Part shown: positions 6,804 through 55,228 of the stretch, piece by piece
Position numbering within the stretch: the stretch's first letter is position 1
How the letters are laid out: each line of letters begins with the position of its first letter
Assembly: GCA_030428385.1 (NCBI GenBank)
Contig: JAUIDY010000005.1
Location: forward strand, 1 to 64,000
DNA from: Rhodothermia bacterium
Lineage (GTDB): Bacteria; Bacteroidota; Rhodothermia; Rhodothermales; JAAAOL01
DNA: 64,000 nucleotides
Direction: 5' to 3'
Made by a program: the position numbers and the translations under genes
Notes under the pieces: generated by a model
Database searches by the model: none
What the model was told of the DNA's origin: nothing
The model's input: only the letters and a program-made list of their open reading frames with translations

Positions 6804-9428
6804 ATGCGTCTGCGTTCCTTTTTTGTCGTTCTTGGAATCTGTCTGGTGGGCGCAGCCCCGCTCGCCGGATGTGCGCAGGAAGCCCCGGACCCCGCCGCCG
6901 CACTGCGGGCCGGGCAGTATGAAGACGCCCGCGCCCAACTCGAAGCCCGCGTGCAAGCCACCGACCGCACCGATGAGGAAGTAAGCGCCTACTTCGACAC
7001 CTTTCGGCTGACCGGGGCCTATGAAGAAGGACTCCGCGAAGCCGAGGCGCTGCTACAAAATGCGCCGAACGATGCTTTTCTGCACCACGCCCACGGTCAA
7101 CTGCTGGTTGATGTGGGGCGCTACGAAGAGGCTGAAGCCGCGTTTGTAAAAGCCGGACAGGCCAACACCGACTACCACCGCAACGCCCTCGACCTCGCCG
7201 ATCTGTATGAGGCCACCGGGCGGCGCGGACAGGCGCAGCGGCTCTATAACGCCATCTACCGCCGCTACCGAGCGGGTGAGTTTCGCACCGCCAAAGACCT
7301 GGCCGCAGGCGGACGCGCCGCCGCCGCCTCTGAAGACTTCCACGAAGCCAACGCCGCCTTCCGCACGGCGCACCAACTCGATCCAAACAACGTGGCAGTG
7401 TTGTTCGAATGGGCCGAGCTTTTCCGCGCCAAATACAACGAAGCCGACGCGCAACGCACGTATCAAGATGCGCTGGCGCTCGCCCCGAACCACCCGGATG
7501 TGCTCGTCGGCATGGCGCAGTCCGTGGGCAGCTTTGCGCAGAAAGAAGAACTGGCACAGCGGGCGTTGGCGACGAATCCAAACCATGTCGGCGCGCTCAG
7601 CCTGATGGCGTCGCTGCGGATTCTGGATGACAACTTCGAGGCAGCCGAGGAACTGCTGAACCGGGCGTTAGCGGTAAACCCCGTCGCCATCGACGCCCTG
7701 GCGCATCAGGCAACCATCTACCGGCTGCTGGGCGACGAACAGGCTTTTGTGGAGACGTCGATGCAGGCGCTGAACGTTAATTCGCTGGCCAGCAGTTTCT
7801 ACGTCACCATCGCCGAAAACCTGACGCTCCAGTTTCGCTATCCCGATGTGGTGGAGGTGGCGCAATTGGCCGTCCGCACCGACCCCGGCGACCCGAAGGC
7901 ACATGGCACGCTAGGCACGGCGCTCTTGCGCCTCGGCGACACCCAGCAGGCGCGGCGGCACCTCGAACTCAGCTTCGATGACGACCCGTTTAACCTGTTC
8001 GTGGGCAACACCCTCACGCTGCTCGACGAGTACGAAAACTTCTCCCTGCTCGAAGGCCCGAACGTGCAACTCCTCATCCACAACGACGAGCGCGACGTGC
8101 TCGGTCCGGCGATGCTCGAAGAAGCCGAAGCCGCCTACGCCGCCCTGAGCGAGCGCTACCCGTACACGCCGCCGGGCAAGCTGTTCGTCGAAGCCTACAA
8201 TGACCCCAGCGACTTCGCTGTGCGCATTGCGGGCGTCCCGCATCTGGGGCTGCTGGGCGTGAGTTTTGGCGATGTGGTGGCGCTCAATACGCCGCGTGCG
8301 CAGGCGGGCAACCCGTACAACTGGGCGCGGACGCTGTGGCACGAACTGGCGCACACGATGGCGATAGGCGTCTCGCAAAATCAGGTGCCGCGCTGGTTTA
8401 CCGAAGGGCTGTCGGTGTACGAAGAACAACGCGCGCGGGGCGACTGGGGCCGCGAGATGGACCTCGAACTCTTCGCCGCCATGGACCGCGATGCGCTGCT
8501 CGACCTCGACAACATCGACGAAGGCTTTACGCGCCCGCAGTTTCCGGGGCAGGTGCTGTTGAGCTACTACCACGCCTCCAAGGTGATCGGGTTTATGGTA
8601 GAACAGCATGGCTTTGAATCCATCACGGGCACGCTGCAAGAACTAGCCACCGGGAAAACCATCGCCGAAGCGCTGGAAGCCGCCACGGGCGAGACGATCT
8701 TTGCCATCGACGACGCCTTCCGGGCCGATTTGCAACAGCAACGTGCGGCGCTGATGGGTGTCTTAGAAGCGATGCCGGATTTGTTGGAAGAAGAAGTGCC
8801 GCTGATCGCACGCGAAGCCGGTCAGAATCCGTTCCTCCAGAAGCTTAACGAAGGGGCCGATGCCCTCGCGAATGAGAACTATGACACTGCCGAGACCCGC
8901 TACCGCGAGGCGCTGGCGATGTATCCGAACTACGCCGGGGCGGGCAATGCCTACGTGGGCCTCGCCGCCATCTACCGCGCCCGCGACGAGCAGCAAAAAC
9001 TCATCGACATCCTCCGCCAATACCTCGACATCGCCGAACATGCCGCCGATGAGGCCCGCGAACTGGGGATGTTGTATGCTGAAACAGGACAACCCCAAGA
9101 CGCCATCACGTACCTCCGCCGTTCCCTCGAAATCGACCCGTACGACCTGCCCACCCACGAACAACTCGCCGACCTGAACGACCAACTCCAGCGCCACGAC
9201 CGCGCCATCCCGTACCGCCGGGCCGTACTCGCCCTCAACCCCGTGGATCAAGCCCGCGCCCATTACGCGCTGGCCCAAAGTCTGCATGGCAACGGCGAGA
9301 CCGTCACGGCCAAACGCGCCGTCCTGCAAGCCTTGGAACAAGCCCCCGGCTTCCGCGACGCGCAGCGGCTGCTACTGACGATTGTTGAGGGAAGCGGGAA
9401 TAGGGAAGCGGGAAGTGGGGATTTATGA
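6804..9428 (+). CDS. TPR lipoprotein with a peptidase MA-like metallopeptidase domain
   Basis: An 874-residue exported protein. A hydrophobic N-terminus ends in a lipobox LAGC with Cys 23. Residues 30-410 are TPR repeats (for example DAFLHHAHGQLLVDVGRYEE). A gluzincin-like peptidase domain follows, with zinc motif HELAH at about 513-517 and a downstream glutamate in WFTEGLSVYEE about 17 residues later, as in peptidase MA-like proteins. More TPR units fill 670-860. The C-terminus (EGSGNREAGSGDL) is encoded by a purine-rich repeat that continues beyond the stop. It opens the cluster leading into the MoxR genes, so a role in envelope protein turnover is plausible (inference). Confidence 0.85.
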   Translation: MRLRSFFVVLGICLVGAAPLAGCAQEAPDPAAALRAGQYEDARAQLEARVQATDRTDEEVSAYFDTFRLTGAYEEGLREAEALLQNAPNDAFLHHAHGQLLVDVGRYEEAEAAFVKAGQANTDYHRNALDLADLYEATGRRGQAQRLYNAIYRRYRAGEFRTAKDLAAGGRAAAASEDFHEANAAFRTAHQLDPNNVAVLFEWAELFRAKYNEADAQRTYQDALALAPNHPDVLVGMAQSVGSFAQKEELAQRALATNPNHVGALSLMASLRILDDNFEAAEELLNRALAVNPVAIDALAHQATIYRLLGDEQAFVETSMQALNVNSLASSFYVTIAENLTLQFRYPDVVEVAQLAVRTDPGDPKAHGTLGTALLRLGDTQQARRHLELSFDDDPFNLFVGNTLTLLDEYENFSLLEGPNVQLLIHNDERDVLGPAMLEEAEAAYAALSERYPYTPPGKLFVEAYNDPSDFAVRIAGVPHLGLLGVSFGDVVALNTPRAQAGNPYNWARTLWHELAHTMAIGVSQNQVPRWFTEGLSVYEEQRARGDWGREMDLELFAAMDRDALLDLDNIDEGFTRPQFPGQVLLSYYHASKVIGFMVEQHGFESITGTLQELATGKTIAEALEAATGETIFAIDDAFRADLQQQRAALMGVLEAMPDLLEEEVPLIAREAGQNPFLQKLNEGADALANENYDTAETRYREALAMYPNYAGAGNAYVGLAAIYRARDEQQKLIDILRQYLDIAEHAADEARELGMLYAETGQPQDAITYLRRSLEIDPYDLPTHEQLADLNDQLQRHDRAIPYRRAVLALNPVDQARAHYALAQSLHGNGETVTAKRAVLQALEQAPGFRDAQRLLLTIVEGSGNREAGSGDL

Positions 9429-9475
9429 GGTTGGGAAAGGGAGAATGGGGAAAGGGAGAAGCAACAGAATGACAA
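9386..9475 (+). repeat. Purine-rich GGGAAGCGGGAA-type tract
   Basis: The end of the upstream gene and the following 50 bp consist almost only of G and A, with repeated units such as GGGAAGCGGGAA and GGGAAAGGGAGAA. Similar tracts lie after stop codons near 10305 and 12588 and at 47130-47175. The repeat supplies the last codons of the TPR protein, so it has expanded into coding sequence or the stop was shifted. Confidence 0.7.
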
Positions 9476-9486
9476 TCAATGACCAA

Positions 9487-9591
9487 TGACACGGGCGCAG
9501 CCCGTTAATGACACAAGCCACGCGAGTACCTGACACAGACAACGTCTGTCCATGACTACCGATAGCTGATAGCCAACAGCCGAAAGCCCAC
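9487..9591 (+). repeat. Mini-hairpin array, copy 1 (leader of the DUF4159 gene)
   Basis: Four 15-nt units start at 9491, 9513, 9535 and 9557, a strict 22-nt period. Units 1 and 3 are perfect hairpins with 6-bp stems and 3-nt loops (ACGGGC-GCA-GCCCGT; ACAGAC-AAC-GTCTGT); unit 2 is a degraded one. The 7-nt separators are TAATGAC, ACCTGAC and CCATGAC. A tail of GATAGC- and AGCC-type heptamers runs to the ATG at 9592. Confidence 0.85.
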
Positions 9592-10293
9592 ATGGCCCAA
9601 CTCCTTCATATCGTCTTGCTCCTCACGCTGGCGGTGCCTGCGGCGCCAATAGAGGACGACTTCGGGTTTCGGTTTGTGCGCATCCGGTACGAAGACCCCC
9701 GCGTGCGGCAGTTTGGCGGGGCGGCATGGTCGCACGATTATCCCACTGCCGAGGAAAACTTTTACATCGCGCTGAAACGAACGACGGCGATCCATGTCGA
9801 AGAACCGGCGCTGGTGCTCGAATTAAGCGACGACCGCATTTTTGAGCATCCGGTGTTGTACATTTGCGAGCCGGGCTATTGGGACATGACCGATGCCGAA
9901 GCCGACCGCCTGCGGCAGTACCTGCTGCGCGGCGGGTTCGTCCTTTTCGACGACTTCGGCGGGCAGCGCGAATGGACGTGGTTCTACGAACAGATGAAGC
10001 GCGTCGTCCCCGAACTAGAGCCGACCGAAATACCGCCACATCATCCTATTTGGTCGATCTATTTCGATGTAGACCCCGTCGCTGCGCCGTCGCTGGTGAG
10101 CCGCCGGGAATATAACCAGGGCGAAGACCGCTACATGGCGTACTTCGACGAGACCGGGCGCATGGTCGCCCTCGCCAACCACAACCAGGACATCGGCGAC
10201 GGCTGGGAATGGCCGGACCGCAACTTCGACGACGCCTCCACGGTCAGCTTCCAGATCGGGATTAACTTCGTGATCTACGCACTCACACACTGA
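9592..10293 (+). CDS. DUF4159 domain protein
   Basis: A 233-residue exported protein with an N-terminal hydrophobic segment (residues 2-18). The rest is a single DUF4159 domain: FRFVRIRYEDPR, YPTAEENFYIALKR, LYICEPGYWDMTDAEADRLR, YLLRGGFVLFDDF, ending WEWPDRNFDD...INFVIYAL. DUF4159 proteins have a glutamine-amidotransferase-like fold and are regularly found next to MoxR, DUF58 and BatA genes, as here. The molecular activity is unknown. It is transcribed with the MoxR gene 207 bp downstream, and both have the same kind of hairpin array in front of their start codons. Confidence 0.88.
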   Translation: MAQLLHIVLLLTLAVPAAPIEDDFGFRFVRIRYEDPRVRQFGGAAWSHDYPTAEENFYIALKRTTAIHVEEPALVLELSDDRIFEHPVLYICEPGYWDMTDAEADRLRQYLLRGGFVLFDDFGGQREWTWFYEQMKRVVPELEPTEIPPHHPIWSIYFDVDPVAAPSLVSRREYNQGEDRYMAYFDETGRMVALANHNQDIGDGWEWPDRNFDDASTVSFQIGINFVIYALTH

Positions 10294-10380
10294 TGAGGGA
10301 TGGAGGAAGTGGGTTGAGGGAAGAGGGGATGACGAGGAGAGGTTGAGAGAGGGAGAAATAATGACAACCGAATGACAACC
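10294..10380 (+). repeat. Purine-rich tract and TGACAACC lead-in
   Basis: The stop codon is followed by a G/A-rich stretch (for example GAGGGAAGAGGGGATGACGA) and then by AATGACAACC units that lead into the next hairpin array. The same order, purine tract then AATGACAACCAATGAC, is seen before the copy at 12661. Confidence 0.6.
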
Positions 10381-10500
10381 AATGACACGGGCTCAGCCCG
10401 TAAATGACGCACGCACAGCGAGCACATGACCGCGTAGCGAGTGACAACCAATGACGCGGTCGCAGTCCGCAAATGCCAACAGCCGAAAGCCCAAACCTAT
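10381..10500 (+). repeat. Mini-hairpin array, copy 2 (leader of the MoxR gene)
   Basis: Units ACGGGCTCAGCCCGT (10387-10401) and GCACGCACAGCGAGC (10409-10423) keep the 22-nt period and are separated by AAATGAC. They are followed by ACATGAC, the short hairpin CGC-GTA-GCG (10431-10439), AGTGAC, AACCAATGAC and a further unit GCGGTCGCAGTCCGC (10456-10470). The tail AACAGCCGAAAGCCCA is shared with the copy before 9592. The array ends 24 bp before the MoxR ATG. Confidence 0.85.
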
Positions 10501-11538
10501 ATGTCTGAAGTACCAACCCCAAACGGAGCACCCGATGCCGCCGATGCGCAGATGCTGGAGCGGCTGCAAGAAGGGAAAGAACGCATCTTTAATCAGATCC
10601 GCCGCCGCATCATCGGGCAGGACGAAGTGGTAGAGCAGGTGCTCATCGCCCTGTTTGCGGGCGGGCATTGCCTCATTACCGGCGTGCCGGGCCTCGCCAA
10701 GACGCTGCTCATCCGCTCGCTCGGCGAAATCCTCGACCTCACGTACCGCCGCATCCAGTTTACGCCCGACCTCATGCCCGCCGACATCACGGGCATCGAC
10801 ATCATCGAGGAGGACAAGCTGACTGGCAAGCGCGAGATCCAGTTCGTCAGAGGCCCCATTTTTGCCAACATCGTCCTCGCCGACGAAATCAACCGCACGC
10901 CGCCGAAGACGCAGGCCGCGCTGCTGGAAGCGATGCAGGAGCATCAGGTGACGGCGGGCGGCGACCGCATGCCGCTGCCGGAGCCGTTCTTTGTGCTCGC
11001 TACGCAAAACCCCATCGAACTCGAAGGCACCTACCCGCTGCCCGAGGCGCAACTCGACCGGTTTATGTTCAACATCGTCATCGACTATCTCAGCGCCGAG
11101 GATGAACTGACGGTGGCGATGGCGACGACCTCGAAGGAGCAGGCGGCGCTCGAAGAGGTGCTGAGCGGCGAAGACATTTTGGCCTACCACAAGCTGGTGC
11201 GCAAGGTGTATGTGCCGATGAACGTGGGCAAGTTTGCCGTCGACCTTGTGCGCAGCACCCGCCCGAAAAGCGACGACGCACCGGAGTTCGTGAAGAACTG
11301 GGTGGGTTGGGGTGCGGGCCTACGGGCGGCGCAGTACCTGCTGCTCGGAGCGAAAGTCCGTGCTGTTTTTCGGGGCCGCCACAACGTGTCCATCGAAGAC
11401 ATCCGCGCCCTCGCCATCCCGGTGCTGCGCCACCGCGTGCTGCCCAACTTCTACGCCGAGTCGGAAGGCGTCACCGTCGATGACATCATCCACCGCCTCC
11501 TCGACGAAGTCCGCGAGCCGGTTTCGGGGTTGGTGTAA
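10501..11538 (+). CDS. MoxR family AAA+ ATPase
   Basis: A 345-residue AAA+ protein of the MoxR type (AAA_3 plus lid). Walker A is GVPGLAKT (about 61-68), Walker B/DExx is VLADEINR, followed by TPPKTQAALLEAMQE and the sensor-1 region FFVLATQNPIELEGTYPLPE, all diagnostic for MoxR. MoxR ATPases act as chaperones that mature metal- or cofactor-dependent complexes together with VWA proteins. The frame is open to 10441, but that part is repeat DNA, so ATG 10501 (MSEVPTPN) is chosen. DUF58 and VWA partners follow directly. Confidence 0.95.
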   Translation: MSEVPTPNGAPDAADAQMLERLQEGKERIFNQIRRRIIGQDEVVEQVLIALFAGGHCLITGVPGLAKTLLIRSLGEILDLTYRRIQFTPDLMPADITGIDIIEEDKLTGKREIQFVRGPIFANIVLADEINRTPPKTQAALLEAMQEHQVTAGGDRMPLPEPFFVLATQNPIELEGTYPLPEAQLDRFMFNIVIDYLSAEDELTVAMATTSKEQAALEEVLSGEDILAYHKLVRKVYVPMNVGKFAVDLVRSTRPKSDDAPEFVKNWVGWGAGLRAAQYLLLGAKVRAVFRGRHNVSIEDIRALAIPVLRHRVLPNFYAESEGVTVDDIIHRLLDEVREPVSGLV

Positions 11539-11571
11539 GTGAGCAAGAAAAGCAAGAAATACCGTGTTCCT

Positions 11572-11638
11572 GTCATGCTGAACTTGTTTCAGCATCTCAT
11601 GTCGCCGGTGAGAGATCCCGAATCAAGTTCGGGATGAC
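11572..11638. repeat. GTCAT...ATGAC palindromic element
   Basis: A 67-bp palindromic element lies between the MoxR and DUF58 genes. It opens GTCATGCTGAACTTGTTTCA and closes CAAGTTCGGGATGAC. Inside are the short inverted pairs TGAAACAAGTT-like/AACTTG and GAGATCC. Related elements occur at 18696, 24406, 50444, 50701, 50851, 53484, 54654, 54939 and 60904. Confidence 0.75.
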
Positions 11639-11691
11639 ATAGAAAAAGAAGCTCCGCGTTTTCCCACCAACACCCTCCCGTTTCACACCCC

Positions 11692-12588
11692 ATGGCCCGC
11701 ACCTCACCCGTCCGTTTTATCCGCCCCGAAGTGCTCTCGCGCATCGCCACGTTGGAGATGCTGGCGCGTGGCGTAGTGGAAGGGTTCGTGACGGGGTTGC
11801 ACCGGAGTCCGTACAAGGGCTTTTCGGTCGACTTCATGGAGTATCGCCCGTACATCCCTGGCGATGATCCGATGCGCATCGACTGGAAGCTGTTTGCACG
11901 GTCGGACCGGTACTACATCAAGGAGTTCGAGGACGAGACGAACACCCGGATGCACCTGCTCGTGGACGTGAGCCGGTCGATGGAGTATGCCTCCGGCGAG
12001 GTCACGAAACGCAATTATGCCTTTTATCTGGCCGCGTCGTTGGCGTATTTGATGGTGCGCCAGCGCGACGCCGTGGGGCTGACGCTGTTCGACGATGACG
12101 TGCGCCGCACCATTCCGCCCCGTGCCTCGAAGACGCACCTGCATCTGCTGCTGCGCGAGATGGAACACGCCGCGCCCGGTGGCGAGACGGCCCTGGGCAA
12201 ACCCCTCCATGCCCTCGCCGAGCGCCACCGGCGGCGCGGCTTCGTCGTGTTGATCTCGGACCTGCTGGACGACTCCGACACGCTGGTGGAGGGACTGCGG
12301 CACTTCCGCTTCAACGGCCACGAAGTGATGGTTTTTCACGTGCTCGACCCGCAGGAAATCGCCTTCGACTTTGAGGATATGGTGGAGTTTGAAGACCTCG
12401 AAACCGGAAAAACCATGCTGGTGGAGGCGCAGGTCGCCCGCGAACTGTACCAGGCCAACTTCAACCGCTACCAGGCGAAGCTGAAAAAAGCCTGCGGCCT
12501 CCTCGGCGTCGATTATATCCCGATCACCACCGATCAGCCGCTCGATTTTGCGCTGTTTAACTACCTCGCGGCGAGGAATGGGAAGTGA
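11692..12588 (+). CDS. DUF58 domain protein
   Basis: A 298-residue cytoplasmic protein. The diagnostic DUF58 block is present at residues 44-85: EYRPYIPGDDPMRIDWKLFA followed by RSDRYYIKEFEDE. A degenerate von Willebrand A fold follows, with DVSRSMEY as its metal-site (DxSxS) motif near residue 91 and FVVLISDLLDD later. DUF58 proteins pair with MoxR ATPases in envelope or cofactor-assembly modules. The last residues (AARNGK) run into a G/A-rich repeat immediately after the stop. Confidence 0.93.
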   Translation: MARTSPVRFIRPEVLSRIATLEMLARGVVEGFVTGLHRSPYKGFSVDFMEYRPYIPGDDPMRIDWKLFARSDRYYIKEFEDETNTRMHLLVDVSRSMEYASGEVTKRNYAFYLAASLAYLMVRQRDAVGLTLFDDDVRRTIPPRASKTHLHLLLREMEHAAPGGETALGKPLHALAERHRRRGFVVLISDLLDDSDTLVEGLRHFRFNGHEVMVFHVLDPQEIAFDFEDMVEFEDLETGKTMLVEAQVARELYQANFNRYQAKLKKACGLLGVDYIPITTDQPLDFALFNYLAARNGK

Positions 12589-12660
12589 GGGAAGGGGGAT
12601 GAGGGTAGCGGGAAGAGTAAATAGAAAAAACCAATGAAACGAAGATAAAAATGACAACCA

Positions 12661-12767
12661 ATGACACGGGCGCAGCCCGTTAATGACGCTTGCGAAGCAA
12701 GCATCTGACCGCGCAGCGAATGACAACAAAAGCCGATAGCTGACAGCCAATAGCCGATAGCCAACAA
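12661..12767 (+). repeat. Mini-hairpin array, copy 3 (leader of the BatA-like gene)
   Basis: Perfect hairpins ACGGGCGCAGCCCGT (12666-12680) and GCTTGCGAAGCAAGC (12688-12702) again lie 22 nt apart, separated by TAATGAC. ATCTGAC, the short hairpin CGC-GCA-GCG and AATGAC follow. A tail of GATAGCC-like heptamers (GATAGCTGACAGCCAATAGC) ends at the ATG 12768. The lead-in AATGACAACCAATGAC (12649-12665) matches that of copy 2. Confidence 0.85.
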
Positions 12768-15116: not shown

Positions 15117-15147
15117 ACCCTCACGTTTCACGTTTCACGTTTTACCC
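15117..15147 (+). repeat. CACGTTTCACGTTTTACC tract before the DUF4175 gene
   Basis: CACCCTCACGTTTCACG is followed by another TTTCACG and TTTTACC, that is 7- to 8-nt direct repeats, and touches the ATG at 15148. The same CACCCTCACGTTT lead occurs at 34776 in front of an inverted repeat. Confidence 0.7.
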
Positions 15148-41545: not shown

Positions 41546-41616
41546 ATGACACGGGCGCAGCCCGTACCTGACCACATAATGACGCAGGCCCCGCCTGCCC
41601 AGACAACCACAAACCC
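41546..41616 (+). repeat. Mini-hairpin array, copy 4 (leader of the LOG gene)
   Basis: ACGGGCGCAGCCCGT (41551-41565) is followed by ACCTGAC, then CACATAATGAC and a second perfect 6+3+6 hairpin GCAGGCCCCGCCTGC (41584-41598). It ends 18 bp before the ATG at 41617. This copy is far from the MoxR cluster but keeps the same leader position and strand. Confidence 0.8.
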
Positions 41617-53445: not shown

Positions 53446-53591
53446 ATACCATCTCCGAGAATAGGGAGTGCATTAGGGAAAGTGTCATGCTGAACTCGTT
53501 TCAGCATCTCTGCTTCCTGCGTTGAGATCCCGAAACAAGTTCGGGATGACATCAACTTTAACTTTGCACCCTGATTTTTCGGAATTGGTAT
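53446..53591. mobile_element. 146-bp MITE-like element, copy 2
   Basis: Left end ATACCATCTCCGAGAATAG and right end (complement) ATACCAATTCCGAAAAATC form the terminal inverted repeat, each running on to GTGCA. The inside is GTCATGCTGAACTCG...GTTCGGGATGAC (53484-53550). The left end starts five bases after the stop of the DUF1780 gene. Confidence 0.8.
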
Positions 53592-55131: not shown

Positions 55132-55163
55132 CCCACGTTCCCCCTTTCCCACGTTCCCCCTTT
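55132..55163 (+). repeat. 16-bp direct repeat CCCACGTTCCCCCTTT, two copies
   Basis: Units 55132-55147 and 55148-55163 are identical and adjacent. The tract continues as TCTCAAC and lies 66 bp before the trmB start. It is of the same pyrimidine-rich type as 31415-31509. Confidence 0.8.
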
Positions 55164-55228
55164 CTCAACTTGATAGATCTCCCAGAACGGGCGATATTAG
55201 CGGCCCGCTTAACACATCTGAAAACCCT

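Follow-up and report, generated by a model that had tools for sequence, protein, structure and literature searches.

Arrays of TGAC-tagged mini-hairpins in the intergenic DNA of a Rhodothermia bacterium and its relatives

Introduction

Among described bacterial repeats, tagged REP elements come nearest to the arrays reported here. CGTC-tagged REPs are found between co-directional and convergent genes and exhibit compensatory stem variation, and no dedicated transposase is known for them (Di Nocera 2013, PMC3733652). Their stems of 8-9 bp start with A/T pairs and enclose loops of 4-5 nt, and their dimers are mostly HH, head-to-tail dimers being negligible (PMC3733652). GTAG-tagged REPs and REPINs, which are found with RAYT transposases, carry the tag directly 5' of the hairpin and are dispersed, intergenic and sometimes clustered (PMC2817692, PMC3116915). 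Intergenic heptad repeats, such as GGGAATC/GGGGAYT (PMC4692102) and TAACTGA (PMC4679880), form periodic DNA near the ends or starts of genes. These are plain tandem repeats, without interposed hairpins. The small dispersed repeats (SDRs) of Nostoc (Elhai 2008, Genome Res 18:1484) are reportedly tiny hairpins with compensatory changes that lie within heptamer repeats; cyanobacterial SDRs are said to measure 21-27 nt and to be family-specific in sequence.

The arrays described here were recognized in a stretch of 64,000 nucleotides (the window, contig C141 of a 6.19-Mb draft genome) from a Rhodothermia bacterium. Their unit is TGAC followed directly by a small triloop hairpin (stem of 6, 4 or 2 bp, loop mostly GNA) and by a 3-nt tail that leads into the next TGAC. 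Units stand head to tail, their hairpins shortening from the head of the array towards the neighbouring gene, and a gap often holds two arms that point outward.

Like the CGTC-tagged REPs, the arrays are short intergenic palindromes with a tetranucleotide tag and compensatory stem variation, and they likewise lie in co-directional and convergent gaps and have no known transposase. On the other strand their linker reads YGTCAT, as the CGTC and TGTC REPs begin; because the bodies mostly begin with G or A after TGAC, CGTC or TGTC stands beside the hairpin on that strand, but 3-4 unpaired nucleotides precede the following stem. The arrays differ from CGTC-tagged REPs in their stems (6, 4 or 2 bp), in their 3-nt loop, and in running head to tail at fixed spacing with the tags of paired arms placed centrally; given these departures in stem length, loop length and dimer type, we do not file them as CGTC REPs. 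They share with the GTAG-tagged REPs and REPINs a tag directly 5' of the hairpin and a dispersed, intergenic, sometimes clustered placement, but their tag is TGAC, their stems vary freely, and no RAYT lies beside any array that was read, the RAYT fragment of this genome adjoining a GTAG-type repeat instead. Periodicity of 7 nt near gene ends and starts links them to the intergenic heptads, and a GGGAANN run lies just 5' of array 1; those heptads, however, lack hairpins. Relative to a CRISPR array the arrangement is reversed, with constant linkers of 4-7 nt and variable palindromes. Array bodies, unlike the SDRs as reportedly described, are 7-15 nt long, interchangeable in sequence and set in ordered arrays. 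This comparison points to the tagged REPs, and especially the CGTC group, as the nearest described elements and to the arrays as an undescribed variant of the REP-like kind, the Nostoc SDRs in heptamers being the closest kin in spirit.

Results

Arrays and other repeats of the window

An initial annotation of this DNA described a leader array of mini-hairpins, with four 15-nt units (two of them perfect hairpins) on an exact 22-nt period, ending at a start codon. The array is real and extends further than was then seen, recurring at 10362, 12652 and 41547 of the window and in many other gaps of the genome. Upstream of array 1 lies a TPR/peptidase-MA gene (6804-9428) and downstream a DUF4159 gene (9592-10293), the gap between them being 163 nt long; MoxR, DUF58 and BatA/VWA genes come next. 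The features of this gap are as follows.

9388-9463, + strand: G-rich GGGAANN heptad run, directly 5' of array 1 and overlapping the 3' end of the TPR gene
9470-9556, + strand: array 1, TGAC at 9470, 9480, 9487, 9509, 9531 and 9553 (spacings 10, 7, 22, 22, 22)
9491-9505, + strand: hairpin body ACGGGC-GCA-GCCCGT (ACGGGCGCAGCCCGT), 6/6 pairs, supported by a single-strand fold
9513-9527, + strand: degenerate body ACAAGCCACGCGAGT, 4/6 pairs
9535-9549, + strand: hairpin body ACAGAC-AAC-GTCTGT (ACAGACAACGTCTGT), 6/6 pairs, supported by a single-strand fold
9563-9590, + strand: GATAGCY/AACAGCC/GAAAGCC heptad run, as read from the sequence, reaching the DUF4159 start codon at 9592

The exact 22-nt period is set by the TGAC tags at 9487, 9509, 9531 and 9553 and holds for array 1; genome-wide it is one spacing among several. 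Of the four proposed units, those at 9491 and 9535 form perfect 6-3-6 hairpins whose stems differ in sequence, whereas the unit at 9513 is imperfect and position 9557 marks the beginning of a GATAGCY heptad run, with no hairpin. The head of the array, at 9470, lies upstream of the annotated start and consists of TGACAATCAA followed by TGACCAA. The proposed ending at a start codon is correct at 9592, but elsewhere arrays end at the stop codons of convergent genes.

Arrays are present in three gaps of the MoxR/DUF58 gene cluster, at 9470, 10362 and 12652, and a fourth sits elsewhere, flanked by a DctP gene and a gene of the LOG type (Lysine_decarbox).

10362-10470, + strand: array 2, TGAC at 10362, 10373, 10383, 10405, 10427, 10442 and 10452
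10387-10401, 10409-10423 and 10456-10470, + strand: hairpins of array 2 (6/6, 5/6 and 5/6 pairs)
10431-10439, + strand: mini-hairpin of array 2, CGCGTAGCG
11571-11639, strand not assigned: classic TGTC-tagged REP pair, TGTC-ATGCTGAAC-TTG-TTTCAGCAT ... ATCCCGAAT-CAA-GTTCGGGAT-GACA
12652-12744, + strand: array 3, with hairpins at 12666-12680 and 12688-12702 (each 6/6 pairs)
12710-12718, + strand: mini-hairpin of array 3, CGCGCAGCG; a GATAGCC heptad run then extends to 12762
41547-41598, + strand: array 4, with hairpins at 41551-41565 and 41584-41598 (each 6/6 pairs)

Several other features of the window were recorded alongside the arrays. G-rich, GGGAANN heptad-like runs lie 3' of stop codons and 5' of arrays at 9388-9463, 10295-10355 and 12586-12617; for similar G-rich heptads in Xanthomonas and Nostoc, G-quadruplexes have been reported (PMC4692102). 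RANAGCY heptads (GATAGCT, GATAGCC, AACAGCC, GAAAGCC) are found at 9563-9590, 10476-10492 and 12731-12762, in the order array, heptads, start codon. The MoxR start in the list of open reading frames is a GTG at 10441, within array 2; the in-frame ATG at 10501, past array 2 and the heptads that trail it, is a likelier start. The MoxR protein itself is 76% identical to homologs from Rhodothermales/Rhodothermaceae MAGs and ~60% identical to those of more distant phyla, which places the host in or near that order. The TGTC REP pair at 11571-11639 lies in the MoxR/DUF58 gap of the same gene cluster and belongs to no array; it is included as a comparison element. A second classic TGTC pair lies at ~53486-53550 (TGTC-ATCCCGAAC-TTG-TTTCGGGAT, with an inverted partner), and both pairs are of the kind that gives the spurious translations MLKQVQHD and CHPELDSGS. 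Further short tandem arrays are TCACGTT (7-nt, 3.1 copies) at 15121-15142 and a CCCACGTT-type array (8/16-nt) at 55132-55164.

Enrichment and genome-wide anatomy

Within the window, TGAC followed by a perfect 6-3-6 palindrome occurs 7 times, always on the + strand, whereas first-order Markov sequences of the window contained 0.23 such cases on average and never more than 2. The initial annotation had proposed that the element should be abandoned if palindromic 15-mers were not enriched genome-wide; after TGAC they are. Across 1.07 Mb of the genome, 20 perfect 6-3-6 hairpins were observed after TGAC against 1.5 expected, together with only 2 perfect 5-3-5 and no 7-3-7 forms, and in the same 1.07 Mb there was no excess of 5-3-5, 7-3-7 or 6-4-6 forms after the tag. 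When TGAC-N18-TGAC stretches were taken without selecting for hairpins, the body had at least 5 of 6 pairs in 26/34 intergenic stretches and in 0/8 from coding sequence (p = 1e-4).

Searched with a covariance model of 31 units, the whole genome yielded 96 matches at E ≤ 1. In the parts that were read (about a fifth of the genome in bulk, as sampled contigs, plus the stretches around model matches), 57 arrays comprising 246 TGAC units were counted; all of them lie between genes, in 43 intergenic regions, as judged from our own codon-model gene calls. Arrays entered these anatomy counts by having at least one hairpin, a choice that raises their pairing percentages and leaves the unselected tests unaffected. 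Up to 8 units stand head to tail, and the tag is TGAC, rarely TGAG. Genome-wide, the distance from TGAC to TGAC is mostly 22 (90 cases), 10 (31), 14 (15), 18 (11) or 11 (10) nt; those of 22, 10, 14 and 18 nt are accounted for by a linker of 7 nt, a loop of 3 nt and a stem of 6, 0, 2 and 4 bp, respectively. Pairing is complete in 53/90 of the 22-nt units. Of 115 hairpin units, 75 have a GNA loop and none has TNC; because TNC is the complement of GNA, only the TGAC strand bears the stable loop. Most units of the 14-nt class read GC-GNA-GC, and those of the 18-nt class are in essence a single sequence, GCCC-GAA-GGGC. A deeper meaning of the even stem lengths was considered and dropped, given this uniformity of the two short classes and the 5-bp stems of relatives.

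Stem covariation and folding

That structure is kept while stem sequence is free, as had been suggested for array 1, is borne out across units. The alignment of 31 units yielded a covariation score of 0.763, against 0.223 +/- 0.032 for shuffled alignments and at most 0.156 when the partner was slid by 1-3 columns; the score is inflated by related copies, a relatedness that the slide control retains. In this alignment 94.1% of cells are paired, and two-sided changes occur in all six pairs. G-T mismatches (17) do not clearly outnumber A-C mismatches (13; p = 0.58). RNA of the TGAC strand should favour G-U, so that these counts give no sign of selection on such RNA.

Folding energies calculated for DNA lie 1.2-2.9 sd below those of shuffled sequences, no more. 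The short body GCGAAGC has a far lower stability when made of RNA. As DNA, both GCGAAGC and CGCGNAGCG match or closely resemble listed mini-hairpins of extraordinary stability (76.5 C for a 2-bp hairpin, 88.5 C for CGCGAAGCG; PMC10527192).

Order, orientation and placement

Arrays are polar: their hairpins shorten from the head to the tail near the gene (47 ordered pairs versus 13, permutation p = 0.0002). Where a gap holds two arrays, these point outward in 14/14 cases, with the TGAC heads central, and reading revealed a second, weaker arm in two more regions (C145 and C176), so that 14 is a minimum for outward pairs. The two arms of a pair have no near-identical stem in common (0/33 comparisons, 5.5 expected, p = 0.003); with different stems, the arms would be kept from pairing with each other. 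Block copying of whole arms was considered and set aside, the best arm-to-arm alignment (98) being barely above that of resampled units (up to 93).

Gaps with arrays are co-directional in 35 cases, convergent in 5 and divergent in 2, and divergent gaps are avoided (2/42 versus 94/447, p = 0.008), a placement also reported for REPs (PMC3733652). Single arrays between co-directional genes share the direction of the genes in 21/25 cases and oppose it in 4, which leaves room for a role as RNA; GGGAANN heptads often lie 5' of these single arrays and GATAGCY heptads 3' of some. Many arrays stop within ~40 nt of a start codon, several abut the stop codons of convergent genes, and some are antisense to both neighbours.

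Relatives and the search for a cognate enzyme

Within the order, with one draft genome per species, the arrays extend to several families: G001, a genome of the same family, and G006, G022, G036 and G065 have arrays that share the linker and layout described here. Spacings of 22 and 10 dominate there too, and in the pairs shown the arms point outward. The bodies differ, and include GCGCCGAAGGCGC (5-3-5) and GCGANC-GCA-GN'GAGC, in which, in a few examples, pairs 3-4 form a tandem G.A/A.G mismatch and the fifth pair is G-C, A-T or C-G. Words with the tandem G.A mismatch at pairs 3-4 and a covarying pair 5 (GCGAGCGCAGCGAGC, GCGAACGCAGTGAGC and GCGACCGCAGGGAGC) were noted at loci L186, L188, L191, L195, L196, L198 and L199 of relatives; GAGCGNAGCGAGC words appear to be common in other phyla as well. 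A further order-wide match, in G055 (L190), was set aside because it looks like a false positive in coding sequence.

The fixed sequence TGACACGGGCNNNGCCCGT is present in 7 copies in this genome and in none of 39 relatives, and a search by sequence therefore misses the family. A phylum-wide covariance search at E ≤ 0.01 returned only this genome, an absence that is weak evidence because few candidates were scored per genome and sensitivity was low. Outside this genome, the DUF4159 protein is matched most closely in G002 (51% identical), where the gap upstream of the gene is ordinary; no arrays were found around MoxR in named Rhodothermales records, and viral contigs gave no match to one degenerate array pattern.

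No cognate enzyme emerged from a Y1_Tnp search of this genome, its relatives and the order. The genome gave a single Y1 transposase match, a RAYT-like fragment that lies at the end of a contig and scores 41 bits against a cut-off of 80; no TGAC array lies beside it. The fragment (L001, G000:C203:57856-58109) is truncated, with about three 21-nt tandem repeats (AACGCACGCCGCTGATGTTGG) on its 5' side and a GTAG-type palindrome, GTAGGGGCAACCCCCCGTGGTTGCCCC, on its 3' side. No arrays lie beside IS200-like genes of relatives in the stretches read, and Y1 genes, found in 34/113 genomes of the order, do not track the arrays. A link to RAYT/IS200 was rejected: in the genome itself, in six selected relatives and across the 113 genomes, neither the position nor the presence of Y1 genes followed the arrays.

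Discussion

With moderate confidence, we regard the arrays as copies of a REP/BIME-like repeat, dispersed through intergenic DNA, of which the folded TGAC strand would be selected and handled by a putative shape-reading protein. The selected form would most likely be single-stranded DNA, as offered by a lagging-strand template, a transcription bubble or an extruded cruciform, on which the C-GNA-G mini-hairpins may fold in succession. DNA seems likelier than RNA in this role because of the outward pairs, the antisense placements, the lack of a G-U preference and the resemblance to stable DNA mini-hairpins. Free stem letters combined with fixed geometry are the trace that a reader of shape would leave, and for this reason we infer a putative protein that recognizes TGAC and the form of the hairpin rather than the letters of its stem. 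Such a protein might mobilize or copy the arms, which would then be miniature elements, or it might compact or mark the DNA between genes; any effects of the arrays on the next gene would be secondary. Of the roles suggested initially for array 1, that of a binding array may hold for a protein that takes DNA or single-stranded DNA.

Part of the evidence could be accommodated at the level of RNA, if arrays were transcribed in 5' or 3' untranslated regions and their mini-hairpins set mRNA stability or ribosome access. The covarying hairpins, the excess of single co-directional arrays in gene direction (21 versus 4) and the many arrays that end ~40 nt or less from a start codon would suit such an element. 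We nevertheless think it unlikely: opposite arms occupy 14 gaps, some arrays are antisense to both genes or abut stop codons, G-U-type mismatches are not favoured over A-C, and the window has no match in Rfam 15. Stems of two base pairs, moreover, are very weak in RNA. Control of translation of the next gene, suggested initially for array 1, is not sustained as the specific role, since outward arrays, ends at convergent stop codons and antisense placements depart from the same-strand position upstream of a gene that a cis-regulatory RNA leader takes.

Distinctly unlikely, in our estimate, is a neutral product of replication, in which NNNTGAC runs arise by slippage of heptads and hairpins are made and kept perfect, without selection, by template switches in quasi-palindromes. 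Other 7-nt runs (GGGAANN, GATAGCY) do flank arrays, heptad repeats are common in the intergenic DNA of other bacteria (PMC4692102, PMC4679880), and perfect stems make up more than half of the 22-nt units. Template switching in hairpins should, however, invert loops, and GNA is never inverted to TNC; the geometry is fixed, and polarity, outward pairing and the differing stems of the two arms need more than slippage. The initial suggestion of a slipped-strand repeat that keeps symmetry founders on similar points, as simple slippage leaves both the GNA loops and the long-to-short order unexplained. Highly improbable is a row of sites in double-stranded DNA at which a regulator or a nucleoid protein would recognize TGAC half-sites at set spacings, with hairpins as by-products of dyad-symmetric sites. 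TGAC is indeed the most constant part, and the commonest spacings, 22 and 10, are close to two turns and one turn of the helix, but those of 14 and 18 are off helical phase; a dyad free in sequence is not needed by a reader of duplex, in which a strand-specific GNA loop would be meaningless.

The preferred reading, a REP/BIME-like repeat whose folded strand is handled by a shape reader, could be carried one step further. The arrays might represent a new class of element, an ordered ladder of interchangeable single-stranded DNA mini-hairpins (C-GNA-G, 6 to 2 bp) on a TGAC linker, with two outward arms that do not cross-pair and a dedicated protein that reads tag and shape. We put this forward tentatively and consider it doubtful.

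Tagged palindromic repeats are widespread, and the arrays are a relative of them in habit, in which stem letters are free while the tag, the type of loop, the length classes, the order and the orientation are conserved. They separate the features that must be retained from those that are free, and TGAC with its GNA mini-hairpin may serve as a handle with which to fish out the putative reader protein. Since the preferred loops are of exceptional stability as DNA, the single-strand folding of intergenic DNA should also be directly testable.
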